Shown in pieces: positions 46,545-60,685 of a stretch of DNA of 64,000 nucleotides. Each line of letters opens with the position of its first letter. Position 1 is the first letter of the stretch. The DNA is taken from assembly GCF_900111255.1 (NCBI RefSeq), contig NZ_FOGP01000003.1, positions 124,001 through 188,000 on the forward strand. The letters are read 5' to 3'. A model generated the notes under the pieces. The model did no database searches and was not told where the DNA came from. It saw only the letters and a program-made list of their open reading frames with translations. The position numbers and the translations under genes are program-made. The DNA is from Parafannyhessea umbonata (lineage in GTDB: Bacteria > Actinomycetota > Coriobacteriia > Coriobacteriales > Atopobiaceae).

Positions 46545-47798
46545 CTACTCGGACTTGAGGCAGAGTATGTCCAGCGGCTCGACCGCAAAGGGCAGCTCGA
46601 CGCGATAGAGGTCCATTGCCCGGTTCATCTGTGACACGGGCTCCCACGAGCCGGTCGCCTCGTCCCAATGGTCAGCGGCCTCCAGGGAGCACTCCCTGAT
46701 AGGCTCCGTTGCGGAAAGCACCTGCAGGATGGAGCCGAAGGCTGCCCTGTTGCGGCACCTGACCTCACAGGAGTAGCCCCTGCCGCCGCCAAGGGGGGCG
46801 CACTTCTCGACCGTGGCAACCATGAGCCTGTCGCGCGCGTACTCCACGCGCCCCGGGTTCTGCGTGGGATTGCCGTAGAAGAAGCCCGTGGAGTACGGAC
46901 GGTGGCTCACGGCGTCCAGCTCGCCCATCCAGGCGGAGGCGGGCTCGCCATCCAGAACGTGACGGTAGGCGTTGGTTACGCAAGCCGTGTAGTAGGCGCC
47001 CTTGGCACGACCCTCGATCTTGATGGCCGAGACGCCGGCTTGGGCAAGGTCGCCCAGGTGGTCGAGCATGCAGAGGTCGTTCGAACTGAGGATGTAGCTC
47101 CAAGACCCGTCGTATTCGACGGGCATGCGGCGCACGTCCGGCTGGGACTCCTCGACCAGCGCCCAGCCCCATCGGCAGGGCTGTGTGCAGGCGCCCACGT
47201 TCGCGCCGCGCTCGCGCCCCACGAGCTCGCTCGAAAGGAGACAGCGCCCCGAGAGGGCCATGCACATCGAGCCGTGGGCAAACACCTCGATCTCGAGCTC
47301 GGGCGAGAGGCGCTCGCGCAGGCGGGCGACGTCCTCGACGCTCATCTCGCGGGCGAGCACCAGGCGACGGGCACCCAGGCGCGCATACTCCTCTGCGGCA
47401 CGCGCGTTCATGATGGAGGTCTGCGTCGAGGCGTGGATCTCGACGTGGGGGGCGTGCTCGCGCAGGAGCGAGATGGCCCCTAGGTCCGCCGCGATCGCCG
47501 CGTCGACACCTATCTCGTCGATAAAGTGCAGGTACTCGGGCAGCGCGTCGATGTCCTCGTCGCCCATAATCGTGTTGAGGGTCAGGTGCACGCTCACGCC
47601 CGCCGCATGGGCCTCCCGCACCGCCGCCACCAGTTGGTCGCGGTCGAAGTTCTTGCTGCGCGCGCGCATGCCCCAGCGGCTGCCCGCAAGGTAGACCTCG
47701 TCCGCACCAAAGTGAATGGCCTGGCGAAGCTGCTCGGGGCCGCCCGCGGGCGAGAGGAGCTTCATGGGCAGGGCTGATGCGGGGCGCTCATCCATCAT
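46545..47798 (-). CDS. Peptidase U32-family protein (TrhP/RlhA type)
   Basis: 417 residues of the U32 family, which includes tRNA uridine hydroxylases (TrhP) and a 23S rRNA hydroxylase (RlhA) more than true peptidases. It starts with the TIM-barrel region KLLSPAGGPEQLRQAIHFGADEVYLAG in pieces. The diagnostic stretch at about 177-215 is FAHGSMCMALSGRCLLSS followed by GANVGACTQPCRW, with four conserved cysteines. The next KIEGRAKGAYYTACVTNAYR is also typical. No clear ribosome site precedes the ATG at 47798; a second ATG (47795) follows directly and one at residue 12 (MKLLSPAGG) is possible. The role here is probably RNA modification. Confidence 0.88.
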   Translation of the reverse strand: MMDERPASALPMKLLSPAGGPEQLRQAIHFGADEVYLAGSRWGMRARSKNFDRDQLVAAVREAHAAGVSVHLTLNTIMGDEDIDALPEYLHFIDEIGVDAAIAADLGAISLLREHAPHVEIHASTQTSIMNARAAEEYARLGARRLVLAREMSVEDVARLRERLSPELEIEVFAHGSMCMALSGRCLLSSELVGRERGANVGACTQPCRWGWALVEESQPDVRRMPVEYDGSWSYILSSNDLCMLDHLGDLAQAGVSAIKIEGRAKGAYYTACVTNAYRHVLDGEPASAWMGELDAVSHRPYSTGFFYGNPTQNPGRVEYARDRLMVATVEKCAPLGGGRGYSCEVRCRNRAAFGSILQVLSATEPIRECSLEAADHWDEATGSWEPVSQMNRAMDLYRVELPFAVEPLDILCLKSE

Positions 47799-54195: not shown

Positions 54196-55191
54196 ATGTA
54201 CGAGAACCTGAGCCAGCCTCTCAACGTCGAGAAGAACATTCGACTCTACACGGGAACGGGCAACCCCCAGCTCGCACAGAGGATCGCGAACGTCCTGCAC
54301 CTCGAGCTCTCCGGCCTCAAGCTCGAGAAGTTCGCCAACGGTGAGACCTACGCCCGCTTTGAGGAGACCGTCCGTGGCAGCGAGGTCTTCTTCGTCCAGT
54401 CCATCGCCGGCCAGAACGTCAACGACCTGCTCATGGAGACCCTGATCGTCGCCGATGCCGCCACGCGCGCGTCCGCCGCGAGCTTTACGGTGGTCATCCC
54501 CCACTACGGCTATGCCCGCCAGGACCGCAAGGCCGCCTCGCGCGAGCCGATTACCGCCCGCCTCGTCGCAAACCTGATCGAGGCCGCCGGCGTCGACCGC
54601 GTCATCGCGCTTGACCTGCACTCCAACCAGATCCAGGGCTTCTTCGACATCCCCGTCACGCACCTGACCGCCCTCTACCAGTTCGGCGACTACTTCAAGA
54701 CCAAGAACCTCGACATGAATAACACCGTCGTCGTCTCGCCTGACATGGGCCGCGCGAAGGTCGCCAAGAAGCTCTCCGACTACCTGGGCTGCGAGGTCGC
54801 GATCGCCCACAAGAGCCGCCCGAAGCACAACGCCGCCGAGGTCATGGGCATTATCGGCAACATCAAGGGCAAGACCTGCATCGTCAACGACGACATGATC
54901 GACACCGCGGGCACCCTGGTGGGCTCCATCACCAAGCTGAAGGAGATGGGCGCAGGCGACATCTACATCAGCGCCACGCACGGCATCTTCTCGGGCCCCG
55001 CTATCGAGCGCCTCGAGAACGCCCCCATCGAGGAGTGCGTCGTCACCGACGCTATCCCCTGCGCCGTCGCCAACACCGTCGGCTCCAAGATCAAGAGCAT
55101 CTCCATCGCCCAGGAGCTGGCCGACGCCATCTACGCGGTCTACGCCGACAAGCCGGTCTCCGGCGTCTCAGGCGGAAACTCCGAGATGTAA
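54196..55191 (+). CDS. prs: Ribose-phosphate pyrophosphokinase (PRPP synthetase)
   Basis: Makes PRPP for nucleotide, tryptophan and histidine synthesis. 331 residues with two PRT-like domains. YARQDRKAASREPITARLVANLIEAAG and DLHSNQIQGFFDIP (in pieces) are family signatures, and the PRPP-binding loop is VNDDMIDTAGT near 234. The flexible active-site loop that usually reads KRR is KSR here. It starts two bases after glmU and is followed by a complex terminator-like inverted repeat, so the operon ends at or after prs. Confidence 0.96.
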   Translation: MYENLSQPLNVEKNIRLYTGTGNPQLAQRIANVLHLELSGLKLEKFANGETYARFEETVRGSEVFFVQSIAGQNVNDLLMETLIVADAATRASAASFTVVIPHYGYARQDRKAASREPITARLVANLIEAAGVDRVIALDLHSNQIQGFFDIPVTHLTALYQFGDYFKTKNLDMNNTVVVSPDMGRAKVAKKLSDYLGCEVAIAHKSRPKHNAAEVMGIIGNIKGKTCIVNDDMIDTAGTLVGSITKLKEMGAGDIYISATHGIFSGPAIERLENAPIEECVVTDAIPCAVANTVGSKIKSISIAQELADAIYAVYADKPVSGVSGGNSEM

Positions 55192-55224: not shown

Positions 55225-55289
55225 CGCAAGGGCCGTCCCACTTGGGGCGGCCCTTTTTGCGCGGCGCCCCAAGTGGGACGGCCCTTGCG
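55225..55289. repeat. Perfect 25-bp inverted repeat overlapping a terminator between prs and pth
   Basis: Bases 55225-55249 and 55265-55289 are exact reverse complements (25 of 25), separated by 15 bases. The arm contains AAGGGCCG, which can alternatively pair with CGGCCCTTTTT inside the spacer to form a standard intrinsic terminator (about 55228-55256). The two folds are mutually exclusive, so this could be a terminator whose read-through transcript forms a long RNA hairpin ahead of pth. Confidence 0.85.
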
Positions 55290-55374
55290 ACCCACGGGGG
55301 CGCCAGCAGCGTCGCAGGTACAATATAAGATGAAGCCAGAAGAGAATCGCTGGACACGCACCAAAGGACACGTC

Positions 55375-55971
55375 ATGGCCAAGCAGGCACAACCCAAAGA
55401 GATAAAGCTGATCTGCGGCCTGGGCAACCCAGGACCCGAATACGCGCGCACCCGACACAGCGCGGGCTTCGCAACCGTCGACGCGCTCGCGGAACGCTCG
55501 CACGTCTCGTACTGGAAGAGCCAGGCGGGCTGCGAGATGGCCGACGCCAAGCTGCGCGCGGGCGGCGAGCTTCATGAGGTCATCCTCGCCAAGCCGCAGA
55601 GCTACATGAACACCAGCGGCGGCCCCCTCTCCAAGCTCATGCGCGAGCTGCGCATATCGCCCCAGGAGATTCTGGTGGTGCACGACGAGGTGGACCTGCC
55701 CGTAGGGACCATCCGCGTCAAGTGGGGCGGTGGGCTCAACGCCCACAACGGGCTGCGCTCGATCGCAGACAAGCTCGGCACGCGCGACTTCGCGCGCCTG
55801 CGCTTCGGCATCGGCAGGCCGCCCGGAAAGATGAGCGTCGCCGACTACGCGCTGCGCCAGCTCAAGGGCAGCTTTTTAGACGAGTTCGAGGTCACCGCCC
55901 AGGACGCGGCCTCAGCCTGCGAGAAGTGCCTCGAGCGTGGGGTGCTCTGGTGCCAGGACAGCATCCGCTAG
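55375..55971 (+). CDS. pth: Peptidyl-tRNA hydrolase
   Basis: Releases tRNA from stalled peptidyl-tRNA. 198 residues with ICGLGNPGPEYARTRHSAGF (residues 10-29) carrying the active-site asparagine and histidine, KPQSYMNTSGGPLSKLM, VVHDEVDLPVGTIRVKWGGGLNAHNGLRSI (Asp near 102) in pieces, and FARLRFGIGRP. All catalytic elements are present. The ATG at 55375 is preceded by AAAGGA at seven bases, and TACAAT lies about 50 bases upstream as a possible -10. The frame could start further up, but the family begins here. Confidence 0.96.
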   Translation: MAKQAQPKEIKLICGLGNPGPEYARTRHSAGFATVDALAERSHVSYWKSQAGCEMADAKLRAGGELHEVILAKPQSYMNTSGGPLSKLMRELRISPQEILVVHDEVDLPVGTIRVKWGGGLNAHNGLRSIADKLGTRDFARLRFGIGRPPGKMSVADYALRQLKGSFLDEFEVTAQDAASACEKCLERGVLWCQDSIR

Positions 55972-58519: not shown

Positions 58520-58647
58520 TCTCAAACGAACGTTATGCCATGTGCATTTGGCCGTGCGACGCACAAGCGGCGCTTCGCACGGCCCCAGGCCCCGCCCATG
58601 CACTACCATTGACGAGGCAAGCCACACCCAAAGAAGGGGGACCTTTG

Positions 58648-59313
58648 ATGCAGGACTACAAGCGCGAGTTCATTCAGTTCATGGTCGACAGCCACGTGCT
58701 CAAGTTTGGCGACTTCACGCTCAAGAGCGGTCGCAAGTCCCCGTTCTTCATGAACGCAGGCGCCTACGTGACCGGCGAGCAGCTCCTGATGCTGGGCCGC
58801 TACTACGCACAGGCAATCCACGACAACTTCGGCGACGACTTCGACATCGTATTCGGCCCGGCATACAAGGGCATCCCCCTGTCCGTCGTGACCGCCGTCG
58901 CCTATCACGAGCTCTATGGCAAGGAGATTCGCTATTGCTCCGACCGCAAGGAGGCCAAGGACCATGGCGCCGACAAGGGCCAGCTGCTGGGCGCCGAGCT
59001 GAAGGACGGCGATCGCGTCGTCATCGTCGAGGACGTCACCACCTCGGGCAAGTCGATCGACGAGACGTACCCCAAGCTGAAGGCCGCAGCCGACGTCGAC
59101 GTCAAGGGCCTCATCGTTTCGCTCAACCGCATGGAGGTCGGCAAGGGCGGCAAGGTGTGCGCGCAGCAGGAGATCCAAGAGAAGTACGGCTTCCCCGTCA
59201 CCAGCATCGTCAGCATGGCCGAAGTCGTCGAGGAGCTCGAGGGCTCGGTCATCACGCCAGAGCTCAAGGCCGCCATCGACGCCTACTACGAAAAGTACGG
59301 TGCGAAGGAGTAG
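58648..59313 (+). CDS. pyrE: Orotate phosphoribosyltransferase
   Basis: Makes orotidine 5'-monophosphate from orotate and PRPP, in pyrimidine synthesis. 221 residues. LKFGDFTLKSGRKSPFFMNAG (near 18), a GPAYKGIPLSVVTAVAYHEL strand, and the PRPP loop RVVIVEDVTTSGKSIDE near 130 (Asp-Asp replaced by Glu-Asp, still normal) are typical. The ATG at 58648 has AAGGGGG eight bases upstream. It is separated from nfnB by a stem-loop and followed by a strong terminator, so it may be its own transcription unit. Other pyr genes are not here. Confidence 0.95.
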   Translation: MQDYKREFIQFMVDSHVLKFGDFTLKSGRKSPFFMNAGAYVTGEQLLMLGRYYAQAIHDNFGDDFDIVFGPAYKGIPLSVVTAVAYHELYGKEIRYCSDRKEAKDHGADKGQLLGAELKDGDRVVIVEDVTTSGKSIDETYPKLKAAADVDVKGLIVSLNRMEVGKGGKVCAQQEIQEKYGFPVTSIVSMAEVVEELEGSVITPELKAAIDAYYEKYGAKE

Positions 59314-59367
59314 ACCTCGGGCCAAAGCCCCCATACGGCCGCGAGGGAGGTCGCAGGGACAAATATG

Positions 59368-59412
59368 AGACTGGTGGAGAAGCACGTACTTCTCCACCAG
59401 TCTTCCTTTCTC
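59368..59412 (+). terminator. Strong terminator after pyrE
   Basis: AGACTGGTGGAGAAG (59368-59382) pairs perfectly with CTTCTCCACCAGTCT (59389-59403) around CACGTA, followed by TCCTTTCTCTT. It may also serve the converging glycosyltransferase gene. Confidence 0.85.
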
Positions 59413-59454: not shown

Positions 59455-60525
59455 CTAGCGGTTGGCCTTGAGCGTCGCGAAGAGCTTTGTGTTGTGGCGC
59501 TTCACGAACGAGATGAACTTGCCCTCGCGATACGCAAGCGCAGCGTTCCTCTGCCTGATCGGCGCGAGCATCATCTGCATCATGCGGGAGTGCGGACGCG
59601 CCACGGCGACGGCAACCTGAGCTCGGTCAGTCGAGATCATGCGCTCGATCTCGGCCATCTTCTGGTGGACGCTCAGCGTGCACTTGGGGTTGCAGACGTT
59701 TTCGATGCAGCCCACGAGTCGCTCCGCATAGCGGCGCTGGACCATCTCCATGCTGGCAGCGTCACCGTCGAGTCCCCAGTGGTGGTAGAGGTCGAGCATC
59801 CAGCCATGCTCCTCCTCGCGCTTGTCGTACATGTCCGGCCTCCAGCGCGCGGTCTCGGACTCGCTGCGCTGACGGATGAAGTGGTAGTACGGGTGCGAGA
59901 TGACGCCTACCTTCTGGACGTCGCGAATGTAGTCGAGCACGTAGGGAAAGTCGTCCCAGAACGTGGGACGGAACCTCAGCCCAAGCTCCTCGATGCGCGA
60001 GCGCAGGAACAGCTTGTTCCAGGGTGGATACAGCTGGTTCACGTCGAACAGTCGCCATGCGGCGGCGCGGAAGTCTGTCTGGGTTGCGAAGACCGCATCG
60101 GGGCAGTTCTTCACCTCGGTGGTGTGCTGGTCGGCGGCGCCGTAGTAGGTGTCGATGTAGAAGCCGGCAATGACCAGCTCGAGGTCATGCGCGTCGCCGA
60201 ACTTGACCATGTCGGCGAGCATCTGGGGCTCCGCCCAGTCGTCGGCGTCGAAGAACATCACGTACTTGCCGCGGGCACGGTCAAGCGCATTGTTGCGTGC
60301 TGCCGGTGCGCCGCCGTTCTCCTGGTGGATGACCGTGACGCGGATGTCCCTGTCGGCGATGGAGTCCAGAATCTGGCCGGTGCGGTCACTCGAGCCGTCA
60401 TCGACGGCCAGAAGCTCCCAATCCTCAAAGGTCTGGTGCTGCAGGCTCTCGACCGCCCTTCGCACGTACCTGTCGACGTTATACGCCGGCATGATGATCG
60501 ATATCTTGGGCAACCTTGGGGTCAT
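59455..60525 (-). CDS. Family 2 glycosyltransferase
   Basis: 356-residue GT-A-fold enzyme. ISIIMPAYNVDRYVRRAVESL (residues 8-28), WELLAVDDGSSDRTGQI (near 40), and VMFFDADDWAEPQMLADM near 87 (the DxD-like metal-binding aspartates) are the usual GT2 order. The last approximately 150 residues include FWDDFPYVLDYIRD and a Tyr/Arg-rich acceptor region. Sugar donor and acceptor are unknown; it may glycosylate wall polymer, capsule or protein. I start at 60525, with GGAG about eleven bases upstream; a GTG at 60546 is the alternative. It stands alone between terminators. Confidence 0.88.
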   Translation of the reverse strand: MTPRLPKISIIMPAYNVDRYVRRAVESLQHQTFEDWELLAVDDGSSDRTGQILDSIADRDIRVTVIHQENGGAPAARNNALDRARGKYVMFFDADDWAEPQMLADMVKFGDAHDLELVIAGFYIDTYYGAADQHTTEVKNCPDAVFATQTDFRAAAWRLFDVNQLYPPWNKLFLRSRIEELGLRFRPTFWDDFPYVLDYIRDVQKVGVISHPYYHFIRQRSESETARWRPDMYDKREEEHGWMLDLYHHWGLDGDAASMEMVQRRYAERLVGCIENVCNPKCTLSVHQKMAEIERMISTDRAQVAVAVARPHSRMMQMMLAPIRQRNAALAYREGKFISFVKRHNTKLFATLKANR

Positions 60526-60685
60526 GCTGCGATATCTCCAGACCACGGGGTTCGAACTACACGGGCGAGGCCAAACGGGACTCGCCGCACAGGGTGATTA
60601 TCGCCTAGCGCGCAAGCTGCCATGTGAACGTGGCGTGATTATCAAAGGATTTCAGCAGATTCACAGACCGAGGAACCCGTGAACG

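Follow-up and report, generated by a model that had tools for sequence, protein, structure and literature searches.

Why should a perfect inverted repeat of 25 bp stand between the prs and pth genes of Parafannyhessea umbonata, overlapping the terminator of the first of them? We have studied this question in a window of 64,000 nucleotides, which is the whole stretch of DNA analysed here. The answer which we favour, with a probability of about 0.6, is that the first 25 bases of the prs terminator were recently duplicated on the spot, in inverted orientation, and that the copy now lies 15 nt further downstream. The genes are found in the order glmU, prs, pth, all of them on the + strand, and 183 nt separate the prs stop (55191) from the ATG of pth (55375). 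The features are as follows, in window coordinates:

54196–55191, + strand: prs (ribose-phosphate diphosphokinase), upstream of the repeat; open reading frame, TIGR01251 at 356 bits against a cut-off of 113
55225–55249, + strand: left arm of the 25-bp inverted repeat, which spans the 5' arm of the terminator, the loop and a portion of the 3' arm
55228–55258, + strand: predicted intrinsic terminator of prs, in which AAGGGCCGTCCC and GGGGCGGCCCTT form the stem, ACTT is the loop and the T-run reaches 55258; from folding and shuffles
55250–55264, + strand: 15-nt spacer between the arms, with the last bases of the terminator stem and the T-run
55263–55304, + strand: alternative downstream hairpin in which the right arm pairs with 55291–55304; -31.5 kcal/mol, z -4.6
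55265–55289, + strand: right arm, the exact reverse complement of the left arm, downstream of the terminator
55319–55324, + strand: possible -10 of pth, TACAAT, past the repeat; a weak candidate from the sequence, with no good -35
55375–55971, + strand: pth (peptidyl-tRNA hydrolase), the downstream gene; TIGR00447 at 194.7 bits against a cut-off of 100

The sequence-only reading of this region had described the repeat as perfect and as unlikely to arise by chance, and both statements stand. The two arms are complementary in 25 of 25 positions. The next-longest perfect inverted repeat in the window has 15 bp. When the 64-kb window was simulated four times with a second-order Markov model, none exceeded 12 bp: chance is ruled out. 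We also made an estimate by hand: with 64% G+C the pairing probability is about 0.27 per position, which for 25 consecutive pairs at a given place gives about 6e-15. In the whole 275-kb contig the repeat is again the longest, and the runner-up has 19 bp. The latter is found in positions 47,507–47,569 of the contig (C6) and is AT-rich (TAACTTATCTAGACATGTT). A perfect hairpin of 15 bp is found in the window at 59367–59404, between two convergent genes (58540–59313 on the + strand, 59455–60546 on the - strand); it is likely to be a bidirectional terminator.

The terminator itself is predicted to be ordinary and strong. Its fold at 55228–55255 has a stem of 12 pairs and a loop of 4 nt, with -25.0 kcal/mol and z -5.0, and is followed by TTT; none of 200 shuffles was as stable. 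It has the stable GC-rich stem-loop of intrinsic terminators and a T-run right 3' of the stem (TTTTT at 55254–55258, two T being inside the extended stem). The fold had been reported before as using half of arm one; it is real, but it takes nearly all of that arm (55228–55249) together with the first six bases of the spacer. A bidirectional terminator was rejected, as the minus strand has no T-run. Terminator-like sites of the shape GCAAGGGCC...GGCCCTTTTTGC are also found at unrelated loci, for example at one of those (L007) in Olsenella intestinalis.

The partner of this terminator is rare. About 27 terminator-like sites are present in its own contig; when the 120 nt downstream of each were searched for an inverted partner, only the one at prs gave a long match, of 25 nt, and the others had at most 8. 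This screen within the own genome covered contig C6, one of 13 contigs. Among 60 terminators in the loci retrieved, none had an inverted partner of at least 13 nt on either side.

Could the two folds form a regulatory switch, an attenuator or riboswitch-like device in which they alternate and control pth? The sequence-only reading had suggested it, pointing out that the long hairpin and the terminator exclude each other. They do. The hairpin formed by the full 25-bp arms has -60.7 kcal/mol (z -9.0). Pairing of the right arm with 55291–55304 is an alternative, and it allows a second hairpin to stand beside the terminator. Over positions 55225–55374 the state with the long hairpin reaches -79.4 kcal/mol, versus -67.6 for the terminator plus the downstream hairpin, a difference of about 12 kcal/mol which favours the long hairpin. 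We also considered whether the downstream sequence CCCACGGGGGCG is a third copy of the unit, but it is not significant: 0.16 of the shuffles and 0.33 of the random stretches score equally high.

The order of transcription speaks against a switch. By position 55255 the polymerase has finished the terminator stem, and by 55258 the T-run, while the competing arm appears only at 55265–55289; the terminator would fold before the long hairpin. Since the competing arm is transcribed after the T-run, it has no antiterminator action in cis on the polymerase which is making it, and it can affect only transcripts which have already escaped. An attenuator needs its competing arm in the RNA before the terminator stem has been finished, and here it lies beyond the T-run. 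Most transcripts would end at the T-run, with the second arm still unmade, and the arm would thus not regulate termination. Attenuators also have a structure conserved with compensatory changes; in our case there is no sign of conservation or covariation, since neither the congener nor any other gap which we have read contains the repeat. A search in Rfam gave nothing near the gathering score for the repeat, and its matches to MIR918 and DUF3800-IV reflect a bare hairpin. A switch is therefore very improbable in spite of the two exclusive folds and their difference in energy.

The repeat is found at a single locus. The search for copies elsewhere had been proposed in order to detect a mobile element, and no second copy is present in the own genome; homologous repeats in 100 related genomes were reduced to short look-alikes of the terminator stem. 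A palindromic element of the REP or MITE type inserted behind prs finds some analogy in the palindromic repeat-like sequences present in the prs-pth gap of other Atopobiaceae, such as the TTGGGGACAGTCCCCAA family. However, the multiple dispersed copies of REP and MITE elements are lacking here, the relatives only give the short look-alikes, and the right arm copies the local terminator itself. Such an insertion appears extremely improbable. With one partnered terminator in contig C6, no second copy and only short matches in relatives, the repeat looks like a single local event, not a repeated element.

Its presence in relatives had also been put forward as a check, and the repeat is found in none of those examined. 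The congener O. intestinalis KCTC 25379, whose prs is 92% identical, has a prs-pth gap of 107 nt which contains an unrelated hairpin (ACGCGGCCGAA...TTCGGCCGCGT) and cannot be aligned with that of the window. No other congener offered a readable gap: the contig of a second one breaks off within prs, and a search for its pth gave none. About 40 further gaps from Atopobiaceae have unrelated hairpins, none at all, or other long perfect repeats (37 bp in L099, 21 bp in L132). The duplication is apparently lineage-specific. On the other hand, these two repeats count against a reading by duplication only, as they could hint at a recurrent function in the gap. Perfect repeats of at least 15 bp are present in 11 of 41 prs-pth gaps; among 50 control gaps of these loci 7 have them, a modest difference by counts. 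Long perfect hairpins are fairly common between genes in Atopobiaceae, so the prs-pth gap is not shown to be special, and we have rejected its interpretation as a hairpin hotspot.

Several other palindromes were found in these loci. L099, an uncultured Coriobacteriaceae MAG, has the 37-bp hairpin (with a 3-nt loop) in its prs-pth gap and another one of 39 bp in a second gap of the same locus; their sequences are related (GGGGATACTCCCC...GTAC) and possibly form a palindromic repeat family. The prs-pth gaps of L090, L097, L101, L107, L110, L124 and L125, from Thermophilibacter/Olsenella relatives, have in common the palindrome AATTGGGGACAGTCCCCAATT just past the prs stop, with outer arms which vary between species yet remain largely complementary. 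The prs-pth gaps of L092, L103, L108, L114 and L119, from several MAGs, contain a long hairpin whose interior is similar (around CATTGCTCAGCGTTCGCTTCGC) while its outer arms differ; they look like one family of repeat elements. Downstream of prs in another genome (G007), terminator-like units GGGCAAATGGGCTGCGGCGGCGGGTGCCCGTTTGTGCC form a tandem array.

How may the right arm have originated? It is established in E. coli that template switching at quasi-palindromes, in which the polymerase copies the nascent strand, perfects imperfect inverted repeats (PMC7202029). The terminator is a quasi-palindrome and the inverted copy of its first 25 bases is absent from relatives, which fits an origin by template switch. 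The replicating strand would have copied the terminator region back in reverse. Both arms are free of mutations, which is compatible with a recent origin and also with selection.

A different origin would be an artefact of sequencing or assembly. The repeat is known from one assembly, and fold-back chimeras can yield perfect inverted copies close to hairpins, so that a chimera formed at the terminator hairpin might have been retained. However, the repeat lies well within a contig of 274,672 bases, in a near-complete genome (99.81%), and the sequence past it runs on into an intact pth gene. We consider an artefact improbable, and less likely than the template switch.

Transcripts which escape the terminator deserve separate attention. 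In this minority of read-through RNA the right arm would refold the transcript into one long hairpin, with a stem of at least 25 pairs. The sequence-only reading had mentioned RNase III in this context. The minimum length quoted for a substrate of this enzyme is 22 nt (PMC5371410), and the repeat provides an uninterrupted duplex of 25 perfect pairs. The RNase III gene (rnc) is present in the genome; given this gene and such a stem, targeting of the read-through RNA is possible. The long hairpin would probably be cut, separating the prs and pth RNAs. If the duplicated arm has any effect, it is probably this separation, which would be minor and not under conserved selection.

A stronger version would make the repeat a selected processing element: read-through from prs would be frequent, and cutting of the long hairpin would set the prs:pth ratio, the upstream RNA retaining a protective 3' hairpin while the pth mRNA is released or degraded. 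The length and stability of the stem, the presence of the enzyme and the precedents of pflBA and aceEF in E. coli (PMC5371410) are in its favour. In some relatives the prs-pth gap is merely 13–25 nt, consistent with cotranscription, and the hairpin of O. intestinalis sits just ahead of pth. However, the long hairpin is not conserved, a strong terminator comes before it, and the weak -10 candidate of pth lies downstream of it. We consider this version unlikely. A dedicated promoter for pth has weak support in turn: a consensus promoter scan of the gap gave no match, and of 41 gaps 8 have -10-like words in front of pth, versus 4.6 expected.

A related proposal is an element for disposal of read-through coupled to the terminator. 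Escaped transcripts would refold into an RNase III substrate; the refolding would destroy the terminator hairpin, the enzyme would cut prs from pth, and leakiness would be corrected after the fact. A search of the literature on prs-pth read-through found nothing relevant. We give this proposal little credit.

The favoured reading, a terminator with a local inverted duplication, is a known kind of feature: it is a curiosity rather than a conserved genetic switch. It illustrates clearly how terminators, since they are palindromes, may seed longer perfect hairpins between genes. It is also a warning that a perfect long hairpin beside a terminator need not be a switch. If the right arm does deliver escaped transcripts to RNase III, it would give termination a simple second safeguard.

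Among known systems, the closest precedent for a possible action of this hairpin is pflB-pflA of E. coli, where RNase III cuts a hairpin in RNA which has probably passed a strong rho-independent terminator (PMC5371410). Both cases have a long hairpin past a strong terminator and near a possible downstream promoter. The hairpin of prs-pth differs in being unconserved. With intrinsic (rho-independent) terminators in general the locus shares a GC-rich stem of 12 pairs, a loop of 4 nt and a T-run shortly after the prs stop codon; it differs from them by the perfect inverted copy of 25 nt of the first part of the terminator, 15 nt downstream, which is absent at the other terminators screened. The products of template switching at quasipalindromes in E. 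coli reporters (PMC7202029) have in common with our repeat a perfect inverted repeat where an imperfect palindrome was already present. In those products one arm has been corrected, whereas the inverted copy behind prs adds sequence next to the palindrome.
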